Program-made: the position numbers and the translations under genes | Source of the DNA: Parasedimentitalea psychrophila | Lineage (GTDB): Bacteria; Pseudomonadota; Alphaproteobacteria; Rhodobacterales; Rhodobacteraceae | Direction of reading: 5' to 3' | Length of the DNA: 64,000 bases | Assembly (NCBI RefSeq): GCF_030285785.1 | Contig: NZ_CP127247.1 | Coordinates: forward strand, 186,001-250,000 | Shown here: positions 892 to 58,901 of the stretch, piece after piece | Position numbering within the stretch: the stretch's first letter is position 1 | Layout: each line of letters opens with the position of its first letter | Notes under the pieces: generated by a model | Seen by the model: the letters and a program-made list of their open reading frames with translations, nothing else | What the model was told of the DNA's origin: nothing | Database searches by the model: none

Positions 892-966
892 TGGCCCGGC
901 ACCGCCGGGCCGCGCCTGACCTTCCCGTCAAACCAAAGGTTTGCCTTTGGCAAAATGGGAATGCGC
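892..966. repeat. Palindromic repeat, GCGCCTGACCTT family, copy A
   Basis: GGGCCGCGCCTGACCTTCCC is followed by an inner hairpin in which AAACCAAAGG faces TTTGCCTTTGGC, then a decayed right arm. The left arm matches the copies at 24993, 30927, 32358 and 58859. It lies between the aminotransferase and the convergent Lrp-type gene, where it may also fold as a 3' hairpin. Confidence 0.7.
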
Positions 967-994
967 TGCCGCCACTATTGGGGCGGTTTTCTAT

Positions 995-24992: not shown

Positions 24993-25055
24993 GGGCCGCG
25001 CCTGACCTTCCCCCCGGGAAGGCGCTTTACGCCTCCCCAAGGTCAGGCGCGGCCC
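24993..25055. repeat. Palindromic repeat, GCGCCTGACCTT family, copy B
   Basis: The 17-base termini GGGCCGCGCCTGACCTT and AAGGTCAGGCGCGGCCC are perfect inverted repeats around a 29-base centre that itself contains GGAAGGCG/CGCCTCC pairing. It sits just after the permease stop at 25063 and may serve as its 3' hairpin. Confidence 0.85.
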
Positions 25056-29535: not shown

Positions 29536-30327
29536 TTAGCCGCATTTACGGGCGATCATCCAGACCGGATCATAGGTCAGCGGCAGCTTTCCGTCGTGGC
29601 CAAATTGGCTGCGATAGCTGTCTTCAAATTCCATCAGCCGGCCCCGGCTCCAGCGTTGCTCGGCCTGTGCATTGACGCCAGTGTTGCGCAGGTGGCGCAA
29701 CAGATCTATCGCACCATCAAACAGCATCACTATGGGGGTTTGCGCCACATGCAGCAGCTCCACATCGCGCGGCAGCAAGGCGGACCAGTCCGGCGCATCC
29801 ACATAGCTTGGCGCCGCAGCCGAAGATCCCAGACGGCGCAGCTGGTGAAACTGGGCGCTGCCAAACCCCGACAGTGCCAACCAGCCACCGGGGCTGAGCC
29901 GCGCCGACAGACGCGCCATCAACGCAGGCATATCGCTGATCCATTGCACGGTCGAGGCCGAGGTGATCAGGTCCAGCTCTGACGGCAGCGGCACCGTCTC
30001 AATTGGCCCAAAGGTAAAATGAGTGCGGTCGGTGCGGGTCTTGGTCAGGGCCCCCAAACCGGGGGCGGCTTCGGCCACAAGATCATTCAGAGTCAGGTGG
30101 TGAATGTCGAAACTCTGCAGCAAAGGTCGGGTCAGGTGGCCGGTGCCACAGCCGAACTCCAGCACATTATCGAACCGCTCAGGCGCGCCCTGCGCCCGCA
30201 GGACCTGCACCAGACCAGCGGCAATATCGGCCTGAGCACGCGCATGTTGGTGATAGCTGGCCAGCCCGCGGCGAAAGCTTTGCCGCACCCGGTTCTGGTT
30301 CAGATCGGACGACACGGCGTCTCTCAT
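29536..30327 (-). CDS. bioC: Malonyl-ACP O-methyltransferase
   Basis: This 263-residue SAM-dependent methyltransferase has motif I VLEFGCGTGHLTRPLL and LITSASTVQWISDMPA. BioC methylates malonyl-ACP so it can enter fatty-acid elongation toward pimelate. The ATG at 30327 overlaps the bioG stop, which fixes the start. It is the last gene of bioBFDAGC. The partner esterase BioG lies directly upstream, completing pimeloyl-ACP formation. Confidence 0.92.
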   Translation of the reverse strand: MRDAVSSDLNQNRVRQSFRRGLASYHQHARAQADIAAGLVQVLRAQGAPERFDNVLEFGCGTGHLTRPLLQSFDIHHLTLNDLVAEAAPGLGALTKTRTDRTHFTFGPIETVPLPSELDLITSASTVQWISDMPALMARLSARLSPGGWLALSGFGSAQFHQLRRLGSSAAAPSYVDAPDWSALLPRDVELLHVAQTPIVMLFDGAIDLLRHLRNTGVNAQAEQRWSRGRLMEFEDSYRSQFGHDGKLPLTYDPVWMIARKCG

Positions 30328-30965
30328 GACAGGATCTCCTGCCAGCTTGCAAAATCCGCAAAGGGGGCGTGGGGGGCGGCGATCTGACGTATCGCGTTTT
30401 CCGGCCAAGCGCGGGTCTGATTGGCCGGCGGAAAGATCTTGTCAGCGGTGCTGATCCAGACCCTGTCAAACGCCGTATCTGGCGCATCGCCGCGTGCCTC
30501 AATCGCCCGCAGTTCATCCCTGCGCGCCACCACGTCGATCTCCCCCCTTGGCTGACAGGTATTGAAGACCCGCGACAGAAACAATTGATAGGCGTCCGGG
30601 CTAAGGGTTTCTATGGTTTTTGACAGGGTCACAGGAGGTATTCCGGTGGCGCGGTTCACCGGGGTCAGAGTGCCATTTATCGCCACTTTGCGCCCGAAAG
30701 GATCGCTGCGCCCCTGTTGCCAATGGGCATAAGAGGCAACGCCAAAGGACCAGGCCACAAGGCTGATCCGTTCATAGGCCGACAGATCCGGCAGATCAGC
30801 GTCCAGATCGCGGTAATCGCTGGCAAAAAGCACGTCATAGGGGCCAGTCAGGTGGCCAAACAGATCCGCACCAACCGCCCAGCCGCCAAATACCACGATA
30901 GCACTCGAATTCCGCCCGCCGTCACCGGGCCGCGCCTGACCTTTATGCAGCCAGCGGAAGTCCAT
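30324..30965 (-). CDS. bioG: Pimeloyl-ACP methyl ester esterase BioG
   Basis: This 213-residue alpha/beta hydrolase (DUF452) demethylates pimeloyl-ACP methyl ester. It has IVVFGGWAVGADLF, the nucleophile elbow AWSFGVASY (serine near residue 73), and a C-terminal PHAPF with the likely catalytic histidine. The N-terminus (residues 7-18) is translated from a half copy of the palindromic repeat found elsewhere in the window and looks longer than usual before the first strand. It starts at the bioA stop (TAATG) and overlaps bioC. Confidence 0.88.
   Translation of the reverse strand: MDFRWLHKGQARPGDGGRNSSAIVVFGGWAVGADLFGHLTGPYDVLFASDYRDLDADLPDLSAYERISLVAWSFGVASYAHWQQGRSDPFGRKVAINGTLTPVNRATGIPPVTLSKTIETLSPDAYQLFLSRVFNTCQPRGEIDVVARRDELRAIEARGDAPDTAFDRVWISTADKIFPPANQTRAWPENAIRQIAAPHAPFADFASWQEILS
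30927..30943. repeat. Half copy of the palindromic repeat inside bioG, copy C
   Basis: GGGCCGCGCCTGACCTT is identical to the left arm of copies A and B, with upstream CCGTCACC matching the longer edge of copy D. It lies within the bioG frame and encodes KGQARP on the gene strand. No right arm is present. Confidence 0.75.
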
Positions 30966-32263
30966 TACAGCTCTCGCGCCAGTCGCAGCATGCCCTCGGT
31001 GATCTGGGTCAGCTGCTCTGGCGTGGTGATAAAGGGCGGCATGGTGTAGATATTATTGCCAAAGGGGCGCAGGAACACCCCCATCTCGCGGGCCAGCCCA
31101 TGCGCTTGATCGGCTGACACCTGGTGCTTCATCTCGATCACCCCAATGGCGCCCAGAATGCGCACATCGGCCACGTTTGGCAGGCTGCGGGCGGGCTCCA
31201 GTTCAACACGCATCTGCGCCGCGATCCGGCTAACATTACTGTGCCAATCACCCTCCTCCAGCAGTTCCATCGAGGCCAGCGCCGCAACGCAGGCCAGCGG
31301 ATTGGCCATATAGGTGGGACCATGCATAAAGATACCGGGATTGCCGCCGCCGATGCCTTCTGCCACGCGGTCATTGGTCATGGTGCAGGCAAACGAGATA
31401 TGGCCGCCAGTCAGCCCCTTGCCCAGACAGATGATATCCGGCTCGACTGTGCAGAGATCAGTGGCAAACAGCGCTCCGGTGCGGCCAAAGCCGGTGGCGA
31501 TCTCGTCAAATATCAACAGGATGCCCAGCTCGTCACACAGCGCGCGGGCCTGATTGAGGTATTCCGGGTGGTAGAAATACATACCGCCAGTGCCCTGCAC
31601 CACCGGTTCCAGAATAAAGCCGGCGATCTGATCCTGGTGGGCCTCAAGCAGTGCGCGCAGCTCGCCCAGACCATTGCGGGCCGGATCGTCGATCCAGTCT
31701 TCGGTGATGCGGATCGGCGGGCGCGACACAAAATGCTGCACGCTGAGCGCGCCCTGAAACAGGTGATGCATGCCGGTGTCGGGGTCACAGACGCTCATCG
31801 CTTTCCAGGTGTCGCCATGATAGCCGGAGCGCACGGTGGCGAACTGCGAGCGGCCCTCGAACCCCATAGCGTGTTGATATTGCACCGCCATTTTCAACGC
31901 CACTTCAACCGAGACCGAGCCGCTATCGCAATAGAAGATGCGGCTCAGGCTGTCTGGGGTGATCGCCAGCAGCTTGCGGCCCAGATTGATTGCCGGGTCG
32001 TGGGTCAACCCGCCGAACATCACATGTGGCAACCGGTCAAGCTGGTCGTGCATCGCCTGGGTGATCCGTGGGTTACGGTGCCCGTGCATCATGCACCACC
32101 AGGACGACATCGCGTCGATCAACTGGCAGCCATCATCCAGTGTCAGGTGAACACCTTGAGATTCCCTTACCACAAAGGTCGGTCCCGGTTGGGTGACATT
32201 GGTATAGGGATGCCAGAGGTGTTGCTGGTCGAATTCCAGCTGGGTCAGACTGTCTTCACTCAT
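30965..32263 (-). CDS. bioA: Adenosylmethionine-8-amino-7-oxononanoate aminotransferase
   Basis: This 432-residue PLP enzyme makes DAPA from KAPA, using SAM as amino donor. Features: HPYTNVTQPGPTFVV at the N-terminus, MSSWWCMMHGH (substrate pocket Trp-Trp), the cofactor aspartate in LIFDEIATGFGRTG and the Schiff-base lysine in CLGKGLTGGHISF. The start overlaps the bioD stop. Confidence 0.96.
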   Translation of the reverse strand: MSEDSLTQLEFDQQHLWHPYTNVTQPGPTFVVRESQGVHLTLDDGCQLIDAMSSWWCMMHGHRNPRITQAMHDQLDRLPHVMFGGLTHDPAINLGRKLLAITPDSLSRIFYCDSGSVSVEVALKMAVQYQHAMGFEGRSQFATVRSGYHGDTWKAMSVCDPDTGMHHLFQGALSVQHFVSRPPIRITEDWIDDPARNGLGELRALLEAHQDQIAGFILEPVVQGTGGMYFYHPEYLNQARALCDELGILLIFDEIATGFGRTGALFATDLCTVEPDIICLGKGLTGGHISFACTMTNDRVAEGIGGGNPGIFMHGPTYMANPLACVAALASMELLEEGDWHSNVSRIAAQMRVELEPARSLPNVADVRILGAIGVIEMKHQVSADQAHGLAREMGVFLRPFGNNIYTMPPFITTPEQLTQITEGMLRLAREL

Positions 32264-33012
32264 GGCTGTAACGCCTTTTTGATGGTGTCGGTATCGATAT
32301 GGGCGGCGAAGGCCTCTGCGAGCGCTTCGTTTCCCTCCTTGGACCGGCCGTCAGCTCGGTCCGCGCCTGACCTTCCGTCAAACCGAAGGTTTGCCTCCGG
32401 CAAAACGGGGAAGGCGCTTCGCACCTCCCCAAGGTCAGGCGCTACGGTCTCGTTTTCCAATCCGTCAATCCTAGGCAGCCTGCCCAAATGCACAGCCTTG
32501 CCAAACTGACAGATTGTCTGCTCCACTTCTGTTTCAGCCTCGCCAATAAACACCACACCAACCACATCACAGCCGGCGCCGCGCAGGGCTTGCAGAGATA
32601 ACAGCGTGTGATTGATAGTGCCGAGCTGAGTGCGGGCACAGAGGATCACCGGCGCGCCCCAGCGGGCAAACAGGTCCAGAAACAACGCCTCGCGGTTCAG
32701 CGGCACCATGACGCCGCCGGCGCCCTCGGCCACCAGCACGCCGTCAACCTGTGGCAGCGATAGCGCATCGAGATCAATCGTCACCGCCTCGGCCTCGGCT
32801 GACAGATGTGGCGAGGCGGGCAGTTGCAGCAGATAGCCCTCGGGCAGCACCGGGCGGCCCGAGAGACGCGCAACGATCTGGCTGTCGGTTTCGTCCTCCA
32901 GCCCCGATTGCACCGGCTTCCAATAGCTGGCGCGCAGGGCCTGCACCAACCCAGCCGAGACCACGGTTTTGCCGATGCCGGTATCGGTGCCGGTAACGAT
33001 GATGGCGCTCAT
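32260..33012 (-). CDS. bioD: Dethiobiotin synthetase with in-frame repeat insertion
   Basis: This 250-residue ATP-dependent carboxylase closes the ureido ring of dethiobiotin. The P-loop GTDTGIGKTVVSAG (residues 8-21) and the second motif LVAEGAGGVMVPLNR (93-107) are intact, as is LCARTQLGTINHTLLSL. Typical BioD is about 205-225 aa. After LGRLPRIDGL (residue 185) about 43 unusual residues follow before ALAEAFAAHID resumes a normal C-terminus. Residues 190-218 are translated from the palindromic repeat at 32358-32447. The catalytic core lies upstream, so activity may survive. Confidence 0.92.
   Translation of the reverse strand: MSAIIVTGTDTGIGKTVVSAGLVQALRASYWKPVQSGLEDETDSQIVARLSGRPVLPEGYLLQLPASPHLSAEAEAVTIDLDALSLPQVDGVLVAEGAGGVMVPLNREALFLDLFARWGAPVILCARTQLGTINHTLLSLQALRGAGCDVVGVVFIGEAETEVEQTICQFGKAVHLGRLPRIDGLENETVAPDLGEVRSAFPVLPEANLRFDGRSGADRADGRSKEGNEALAEAFAAHIDTDTIKKALQP
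32358..32447. repeat. Palindromic repeat inside bioD, copy D
   Basis: The left arm GGTCCGCGCCTGACCTTCC and right arm AAGGTCAGGCGCTACGGTC frame a 90-base element. Its centre repeats copy A (GTCAAACCGAAGGTTTGCC) and copy B (GGGGAAGGCGCTTCGCACCT). Ninety bases is a multiple of three and no stop is introduced in the bioD frame. The flanks at 32341-32357 look like a further edge of the same element. Confidence 0.85.
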
Positions 33013-34151
33013 GCCGGGGTCTCCAGTAGGTTGGCCAGATCAGCGAACAGCTCCGAAATCACCTGCGGTGAGCTGTTCAGTGTCACCGAGATCCGCAACC
33101 GCGAGCTGCCGCGTGGCACGGTGGGCGGGCGGATGCCGCGAATGTCATAGCCCTTGGCCTGTAGCGCCTGTGCGATAGCCATGGTGCGTTTGTCGTCACC
33201 GATAATCACCGGCATGATCTGGCTTTGGAACCCGGTCAGATCACAGTGCTTTTCGGCCTCTGCTTGGGCGTGGCGAATTAGATCCCATGCCCGGTTTTGC
33301 CGATCCGGGTTCGCGGCCAGCTCCGCCAGTGCGGCCCGCACCAGTGCGGCATTCAGCGGTGGCGGTGCGGTGGCAAAGATAAAGGCGCGGGCCTTGTTGA
33401 TCAGGGTCTCGATCAGGGCAGAGGCGCCGCAGATCAACGCGCCAGAGACGCCCAGCGCCTTGCCGCAGGTGTGCAGCGACAGCACATTTGGCTGGTGCGC
33501 AACCGCGTGGCCCAGCCCGCGACCCTGATCGCCAAACACCCCGGTTGAATGGGCCTCGTCCAGCACCAGCACCGCCTTTTCGCGGGTGGCCAGTTCGGAC
33601 AGGGCCGCCACCGGGGCACAGTCACCATCCATCGAATAGACCGCCTCAACCGCGATCCAGATCTGGCCGCTGCCGCCCTGCGCGCGCCAATCGGTGATGG
33701 CGGCCTGCGCCGCCCTGACATCGTTATGGGCAAAGCTTTGGCACTGGGCCCGACCCAGCCGCATGCCGTCATGGGTGCTGGCGTGGATCAGCGCGTCGTA
33801 CAGCACCAGATCGCCGTGCCGAGGTAGCGCCGAGAATATCGCCATATTGCCGGTAAAGCCGCCATTGATAAACAAGGCGGCCTGGGTGCCAAAGAAATCG
33901 GCGGCCTCAGCTTCGAGCAAGACATGCTCGGCGTCATTGCCGCGCAGCAGGCGCGAGCCGCCTGCCCCAACCGGCACGCCGCGTGCCAGCGCCGCTGACG
34001 CCGCATCGCGCAGCAGCTCGGACCCGGCCAGCCCGAGGTAATCGTTTGAGGCAAAGTCATGCCCGGCGCGGGGCATCAGGCTGCGATAGCGGCCCCGCGA
34101 CCTGAGCATTTCCAGCGCCTTTTCATGGCGCGGGAAGGTGCCCGTGCTCAT
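33009..34151 (-). CDS. bioF: 8-amino-7-oxononanoate synthase
   Basis: This 380-residue alpha-oxoamine synthase condenses pimeloyl-ACP with alanine. Signatures: [26 protein letters not shown], the cofactor aspartate in [17 protein letters not shown], and the PLP lysine in [15 protein letters not shown]. It overlaps bioB and bioD by four bases at each side, so the operon is fully coupled. Confidence 0.96.
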
Positions 34152-58858: not shown

Positions 58859-58901
58859 GGGTCGCGCCTGACCTTCCCCACGGGAAGGTCAGGCGCGACC
58901 C
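58859..58901. repeat. Palindromic repeat, GCGCCTGACCTT family, copy E
   Basis: GGGTCGCGCCTGACCTTCCC and its exact inverse flank a three-base loop (CAC), a perfect 20-base stem. It lies between the BKACE and carnitine dehydrogenase genes on the same strand, so it may tune expression between them. It is a minimal version of the family without the inner part. Confidence 0.9.

Follow-up and report, generated by a model that had tools for sequence, protein, structure and literature searches.

The window, the whole stretch of 64,000 nucleotides analysed here, carries a biotin operon of Parasedimentitalea psychrophila that comprises bioB, bioF, bioD, bioA, bioG and a methyltransferase gene, the last assigned to BioC by position only. 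The bioD product scores above the cut-off of NCBIfam TIGR00347 and matches Pfam AAA_26, and its structural model resembles solved dethiobiotin synthetases (best Foldseek E 2.9e-14). It is the single BioD match in the genome (E <= 1e-10); given this and the gene content of the operon, loss of the protein would presumably be costly. Because the bioD stop codon overlaps the start of bioA, the two genes are probably translationally coupled. The features discussed below are collected in Table 1.

Table 1. Genes and repeat copies at the biotin locus, elsewhere in the window and in Leisingera. Positions are those of the window unless a locus is named.
Feature	Position	Strand	Remarks
bioD, dethiobiotin synthetase	32260..33012	minus	250 aa, insert in frame
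Core palindrome, long form, in bioD frame (…APDLGEVRSAFPVLPEANLRFDGRSGA…)	32363..32442	minus	80 bp, exact 12-bp arms
Mini-hairpin GGACCGGCCGTCAGCTCGGTCC (plus-strand letters), in bioD frame	32341..32362	minus	22 bp, part of composite element
Nested inner hairpin module, long form	32377..32406	minus	relative to bioD of G001, G002, G004 and G005
bioA	30965..32263	minus	TIGR00508; its ATG overlaps the bioD stop (ATGA)
bioG, pimeloyl-ACP methyl esterase	30324..30965	minus	213 aa; Pfam PF04301, 80.9 bits
Half copy (one arm) in bioG, read ..GQARPG..	30932..30943	minus	remnant of second insertion, near N-terminus
Half copy, intergenic, between convergent genes	912..967 (end approximate)	plus	left arm 912-923 and inner module; right arm absent
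53-bp intergenic copy	24998..25050	plus	adjoins gene 3' end
33-bp intergenic copy	58864..58896	plus	between two minus-strand genes
Leisingera plasmid xdhC with element	L338:1809-2816; L339:1809-2810		RefSeq-annotated

Within bioD lies a palindrome with exact 12-bp arms, GCGCCTGACCTT at 32363-32374 and AAGGTCAGGCGC at 32431-32442. A first-pass annotation had placed a palindromic repeat of 90 bases at 32358-32447, read through by bioD. The repeat is real and the bioD frame does cross it without a stop, but the core measures 80 bp, the proposed span being 5 bp too wide on either side. The focal copy is a long form, in which a 30-bp nested hairpin stands where the 53-bp form has 3 bp; the additional 27 bp amount to nine codons. 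The inner module nested in it is found again in L011 and L012, both intergenic, as well as in the half copy at 912, and a mini-hairpin corresponding to the one beside the bioD core adjoins most intergenic copies. Three further copies had been proposed, at 892, 24993 and 58859. All are related to the bioD palindrome, though not at full length, since they represent a half copy, a 53-bp and a 33-bp copy, respectively, and the half copy in the bioG frame had been overlooked.

How common is the repeat beyond bioD? With up to two mismatches, the window contains the arm 12-mer 19 times, whereas 100 shuffles average 8.36 occurrences and never exceed 16. The exact 12-mer is found 36 times in the genome (19 forward, 17 reverse), and a 130-bp query around the bioD palindrome yields 25 matches. 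The genome-wide count of copies that had been recommended thus gives 36 exact arms, with coding copies confined to few genes. The 12-mer hits L056, L060, L064 and L167 fall in predicted genes of the focal genome without a surrounding palindrome and were discarded as chance or codon matches. L060 and L167 (G000:C1:2431717 and 4550828) appear to be duplicates of one 195-codon predicted gene. A search of positions 30000-34000 of the window against Rfam gave 0 matches at gathering score. The probability that we are dealing with an assembly error or a chance similarity is practically nil: both are ruled out by the same insertion in independently assembled congeners and by the dispersed copies, with 0 occurrences in a reversed-pattern control.

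Alignment with outgroup proteins read from the same start shows about 43 extra residues in the focal BioD, after the strand that ends in LGRLP and before the C-terminal helix. All 16 outgroups examined (the 13 loci L067-L079 plus L087, L093 and L094) lack the segment, and further BioDs from 78 loci, two congener duplicates set aside, are at most 220 aa long and therefore without insert by length. AlphaFold (81 rows) gives residues 189-221 a pLDDT below 50, while 186 of the 250 residues reach at least 90, and depicts the insert as a loop near the C-terminus beside an intact core. The expectations voiced earlier are borne out in this respect: an extra segment at residues 186-229 corresponding to the repeat, close to the low-confidence stretch; a gap at this place in the alignment; a predicted loop near the C-terminus; and an intact catalytic P-loop. 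In the same loop, small insertions of about 11-13 residues, unrelated to the repeat and in one case a tandem duplication, are present in two Pseudophaeobacter outgroup sequences, L071 and L074, which indicates that this loop tolerates changes in length.

Is BioD impaired by its insert? The insert is long relative to a protein of some 207 residues, and a decaying gene could still be open by chance. We give this explanation hardly any credence. The P-loop and the other invariant columns are kept, the family score lies above the TIGR00347 cut-off and the frame is maintained in 8/8 species of the genus despite several length changes, on which grounds a BioD pseudogene was rejected; in addition, there is no second BioD match, and the remaining operon is present. 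BioD is probably made and working, and the insert would have little effect on it. A splicing signal is not needed to account for the BioD data.

BioD is present in all eight genus genomes (G000, the focal one, and G001-G007), each with the homologous C-terminus in frame. In bioD of G001, G002, G004 and G005, the 53-bp form and its mini-hairpin occupy the same site and the same frame, bioD of G003 and G006 contains in-frame remnants, and the insert of G007 is a different sequence, matching a second palindrome family (GCGGGCGGGAAACGAAGTGCCCGC core) that occurs in 6/8 congeners at E <= 0.01. Across the congeners the insert adds 15-43 residues over the outgroups. In a tree built from bioA and part of bioD, the genus forms a clade with a support of 100; G000 and G007 are each other's nearest relatives (support 100) with unlike inserts, while the position of G005 has a support of 47 and that of G006 one of 72. 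Since elements of the first family are found on both sides of the tree, one was most likely present in the common ancestor. The insertion is therefore not peculiar to bioD of a single genome, as it had been presented, but genus-wide, with remnants and substitutes and a second one in bioG. Relatives share the BioD segment, yet 8/8 congeners also carry the repeat elsewhere, and the objection foreseen in the first-pass annotation, a shared segment without matching repeats, falls away.

The insert has diverged less than the remainder of bioD, fourfold sites included. Between G002 and G004, 1/16 of these sites changed in the bioD insert versus 45/108 elsewhere; for G005 and G001 the figures are 1/16 and 48/101. 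A plain neutral passenger is insufficient to explain this low divergence, and gene conversion or structural constraint must be added.

The insertion in bioG is separate from that in bioD. G001 and G003 have a full element near the BioG N-terminus, read in a frame unlike that of bioD (…RPTLGRREAPSRGEGQARPG…), whereas G000, G005, G006 and G007 have a remnant (weakest in G006) and G002 and G004 have none; 12 aligned outgroup BioGs lack the insert. A related element occurs in xdhC of Leisingera, where it is translated from the opposite strand and contributes 36-38 extra residues in the two records read. It lies under annotated xdhC in at least five Leisingera records, among the 20 listed of 27 plasmid-search records, and its residues are absent from 16/16 aligned XdhCs of other genera (an alignment from which locus L358 was left out, as it gave no usable ORF). 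Hence one sense frame is used in bioD, another in bioG and the opposite strand in xdhC. At least three of the six frames are open in 110/147 copies. The translated segments abound in G, R, A and P, with no selection for a common peptide across bioD, bioG and xdhC.

Could the insert still have been selected as a peptide that endows BioD with a new function in interaction, regulation or stability? Some form of it is kept in all eight congeners, but the segment is of low confidence and rich in G, R, P and A, its length varies from 15 to 43 residues, its sequence differs by lineage, G007 has another palindrome in its place, and three host genes use three different frames. A new peptide function is therefore highly improbable.

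Exact palindromes occur in 8/8 congeners and in 0/53 other genomes, 29 of which are Rhodobacteraceae. A covariance model, built from 46 congener copies and giving rough E-values, finds at least 38-77 matches per congener and at least 395 in total in the eight genus genomes (E <= 0.01). At E <= 0.001 it matches 71/149 Rhodobacteraceae genomes, G000 included, with up to 25 matches in another genus. Among 115 class genomes sampled, matches at 1e-6 were confined to G000 and one other member of the Rhodobacteraceae (G180).

Where do these copies reside? Gene positions were taken from codon-usage predictions, not from an annotation. Among the best 150 of the 395 matches, 142 are intergenic, 2 overlap a predicted gene at its edge (by 6 and 36 bp, probably through wrong gene starts or ends), and 6 lie wholly in genes, namely bioD of G001, G002, G004 and G005 and bioG of G001 and G003; neither the focal long form nor the bioD inserts of G003, G006 and G007 are included in these 150. 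Their flanking genes are tandem in 83 cases, convergent in 46 and divergent in 2, compared with 14, 6 and 12 for control gaps of at least 80 bp, all taken from the window (Fisher p 3e-8). The distance from an upstream stop codon to the copy has a median of 33.5 bp (n=180), again for the best 150 of 395. For exact copies of G001-G007, 41/42 are intergenic and the remaining one is in bioD. In other genera, 0/48 usable copies (of 49, L249 being left out because of its coordinates) lie wholly in predicted genes and one has a 12-bp edge overlap, as judged with a gene finder trained on this window. Small hypothetical proteins annotated over a copy between rfbB and rfbD in Phaeobacter (L340:2068-2253 and L341:1505-1741) look like over-annotation and were not counted.

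The element folds into a conserved structure. A cross-genus alignment of 40 sequences was assembled from 2 congener copies and 38 of 49 fetched from other genera, 11 copies having been left out on account of length, coordinates or to limit the share of one genome. Because its rows come from a search with a structured model, the alignment is biased towards pairing; with this bias, 93.9% of cells pair versus 85.7% in shuffles, 11 pairs changed on both sides (reached by 4/500 shuffles), and two-sided changes fill 99 cells against a shuffle mean of 28.6 (0/500). Slid-alignment controls gave 2-11 cells with two-sided changes. One of the five covariation measures, further pair types, stayed within the shuffle range (43/500). 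Within the genus, covariation is weak (2 pairs) because the copies had been chosen for exact arms. The outer stem varies in sequence from site to site and keeps its pairing. T runs are a weak signal, following 19/50 copies on one strand and 9/50 on the other, compared with 7.5% of intergenic positions; copies between genes might conceivably act like terminators, and the bioD copy requires no T run.

These structures raise the question whether the bioD and bioG palindromes are kept as mRNA hairpins that set processing, stability or translation of the operon, with the peptide as a by-product. The focal bioD mRNA (RNA fold of 32338-32450, minus strand) is very stable at -71.5 kcal/mol (z -7.4), 5/7 congeners fold at z -2.3 to -4.2 relative to shuffled codons or have a replacement hairpin, and both coding copies are located near gene junctions of one operon. 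The sparing of fourfold sites in the insert also agrees with such a role. However, the bioD hairpin is lost in G006 (z -1.3), G002 and G004 manage without a copy in bioG, and only half of the copy remains in most others. Orthologous intergenic copies, moreover, are also conserved, at 87.4% identity versus 85.0% in their flanks (53 same-orientation pairs), and conservation would accordingly belong to the family rather than to bioD. We regard an RNA role as unlikely.

Both orientations of the element are found in 9/24 orthologous intergenic groups, one of which is ambiguous as it has two copies. At such sites, for instance L004 and L166, L001-L008 and L153-L333, the whole element is inverted between species together with its mini-hairpin, as if it had been inverted in place or re-inserted. 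Taken together, the conservation and the orientation of intergenic copies point to slow divergence and in-place turnover as traits of the whole family. Both would follow from constraint on the stem or from gene conversion between copies. The palindrome in bioD and bioG might also have a dual use: the hairpin, conserved in structure throughout the family, would continue to be exchanged and homogenised inside the gene with the frame kept, the loop of an essential enzyme serving as a landing pad for palindrome families (the short form, the nested long form and, in G007, the second family), and it would possibly be retained because the mRNA hairpin tunes the operon. We consider this rather doubtful, if worth a minority vote. 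As to movement, PF01797 (Y1 transposase, RAYT-like) has no match in G000, and 4/8 congeners have matches, several of them fragments; a REPIN driven by a RAYT was rejected on the ground that the focal genome is without a Y1 transposase.

In our judgement the likely explanation is a REP-like composite palindrome that was inserted ancestrally in bioD and bioG, is tolerated there and is translated as loop residues of enzymes that remain functional. The element consists of a stem of 12-bp arms extended by an outer stem specific to each site, with a hairpin inside and a mini-hairpin on one side; it usually sits just downstream of genes and forms a conserved hairpin. In an ancestor of the genus, one copy probably entered bioD and another bioG, both landing in loops tolerant of length change; these insertions are readable because the element is free of stops in several frames. 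The ribosome would then translate the hairpin into about 25-43 extra residues, probably disordered. Afterwards the bioD copy probably went on evolving as an element, with internal in-frame deletions, conversion of the short into the nested long form (G000) and a palindrome swap (G007). What speaks against this explanation is that both coding insertions of the genus would have been placed in one operon by chance, which is unlikely; the low divergence of the insert at fourfold sites and the lack of a Y1 transposase match in G000 count against it as well.

How does the element compare with known palindromic repeats? The first-pass annotation had likened it to the protein-coding palindromic elements of Rickettsia (RPEs), and the resemblance holds for the way of working: both are dispersed palindromes, common to related species, that add in-frame residues to ordinary enzymes. 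Membership among the RPEs does not hold, considering host, length, frames and the few host genes. As characterised in the pertinent part of the review PMC10969869, RPEs measure about 150 bp, encode a conserved peptide and occur in many genes, with about half of 44 R. conorii copies in ORFs. The element described here, in contrast, mostly spans 53-112 bp (core 53-80), uses three frames on two strands with no conserved peptide or single preferred frame, and is almost wholly intergenic. Instead of being frequent in many unrelated genes, it lies wholly inside genes in 6 of the best 150 of 395 matches, in bioD and bioG only.

REPs, including the GTAG and CGTC families, offer another parallel. Like them, the element is a multi-copy palindrome with a shared motif and stem-loop, mostly extragenic at the 3' side of genes and seldom between divergent genes. 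Unlike them, it is longer and composite, with a core, a mini-hairpin and a site-specific outer stem: REPs of E. coli have a length of about 14-40 nt in the section of PMC12306157 that deals with them, whereas the core here is mostly 53 bp and the whole element about 80-90 bp. Intragenic ERIC and RU elements are reportedly also small repeats that can be fused in frame to genes. Such fusion is ascribed to small non-autonomous repeats (MITEs) in an excerpt of PMC10969869. In contrast to MITEs, the whole element is palindrome, and terminal inverted repeats of known insertion sequences were not recognised in it; no target-site duplication is evident by eye at bioD.

Outside Rickettsia, REPs inside genes and in frame, some being the sole coding copy of a species, are on record in part of PMC3733652, as are different REPs near the same recB site in two Xanthomonas species; the text of that paper does not mention Rhodobacter, Roseobacter or Ruegeria. 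Since intragenic REPs are already in print, the kind is known and the family new. The family itself seems previously undescribed, as searches of the open-licence literature gave no recognised description of it and no recognised report of coding palindromes in these hosts.

Free-living marine bacteria thereby join the hosts in which palindromic repeats make protein segments, and related species display every stage, from the insert-free ancestral state through the insertion itself to the forms that followed. The series of bioD genes without insert or with a short, long, replaced or deleted one renders the harmlessness of coding palindromes testable. Beyond bioD, a locus with no match in Rfam, the analysis reveals a palindrome family with clear covariation across roughly half the Rhodobacteraceae genera sampled, possibly with a function at the 3' ends of genes.

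The family looks modular. Several copies (L011-L014, L388 and L196) contain nested inner hairpins that are interchangeable, of the AAACCGAAGGTTTGCC.. or CACGCC..GTGCTTTCAGCAC types. The second family (GCGGGCGGGAAACGAAGTGCCCGC core; L151, L198-L215 and L027, the last at G000:C1:137400-137468) has the mini-hairpin and inner modules of the first.
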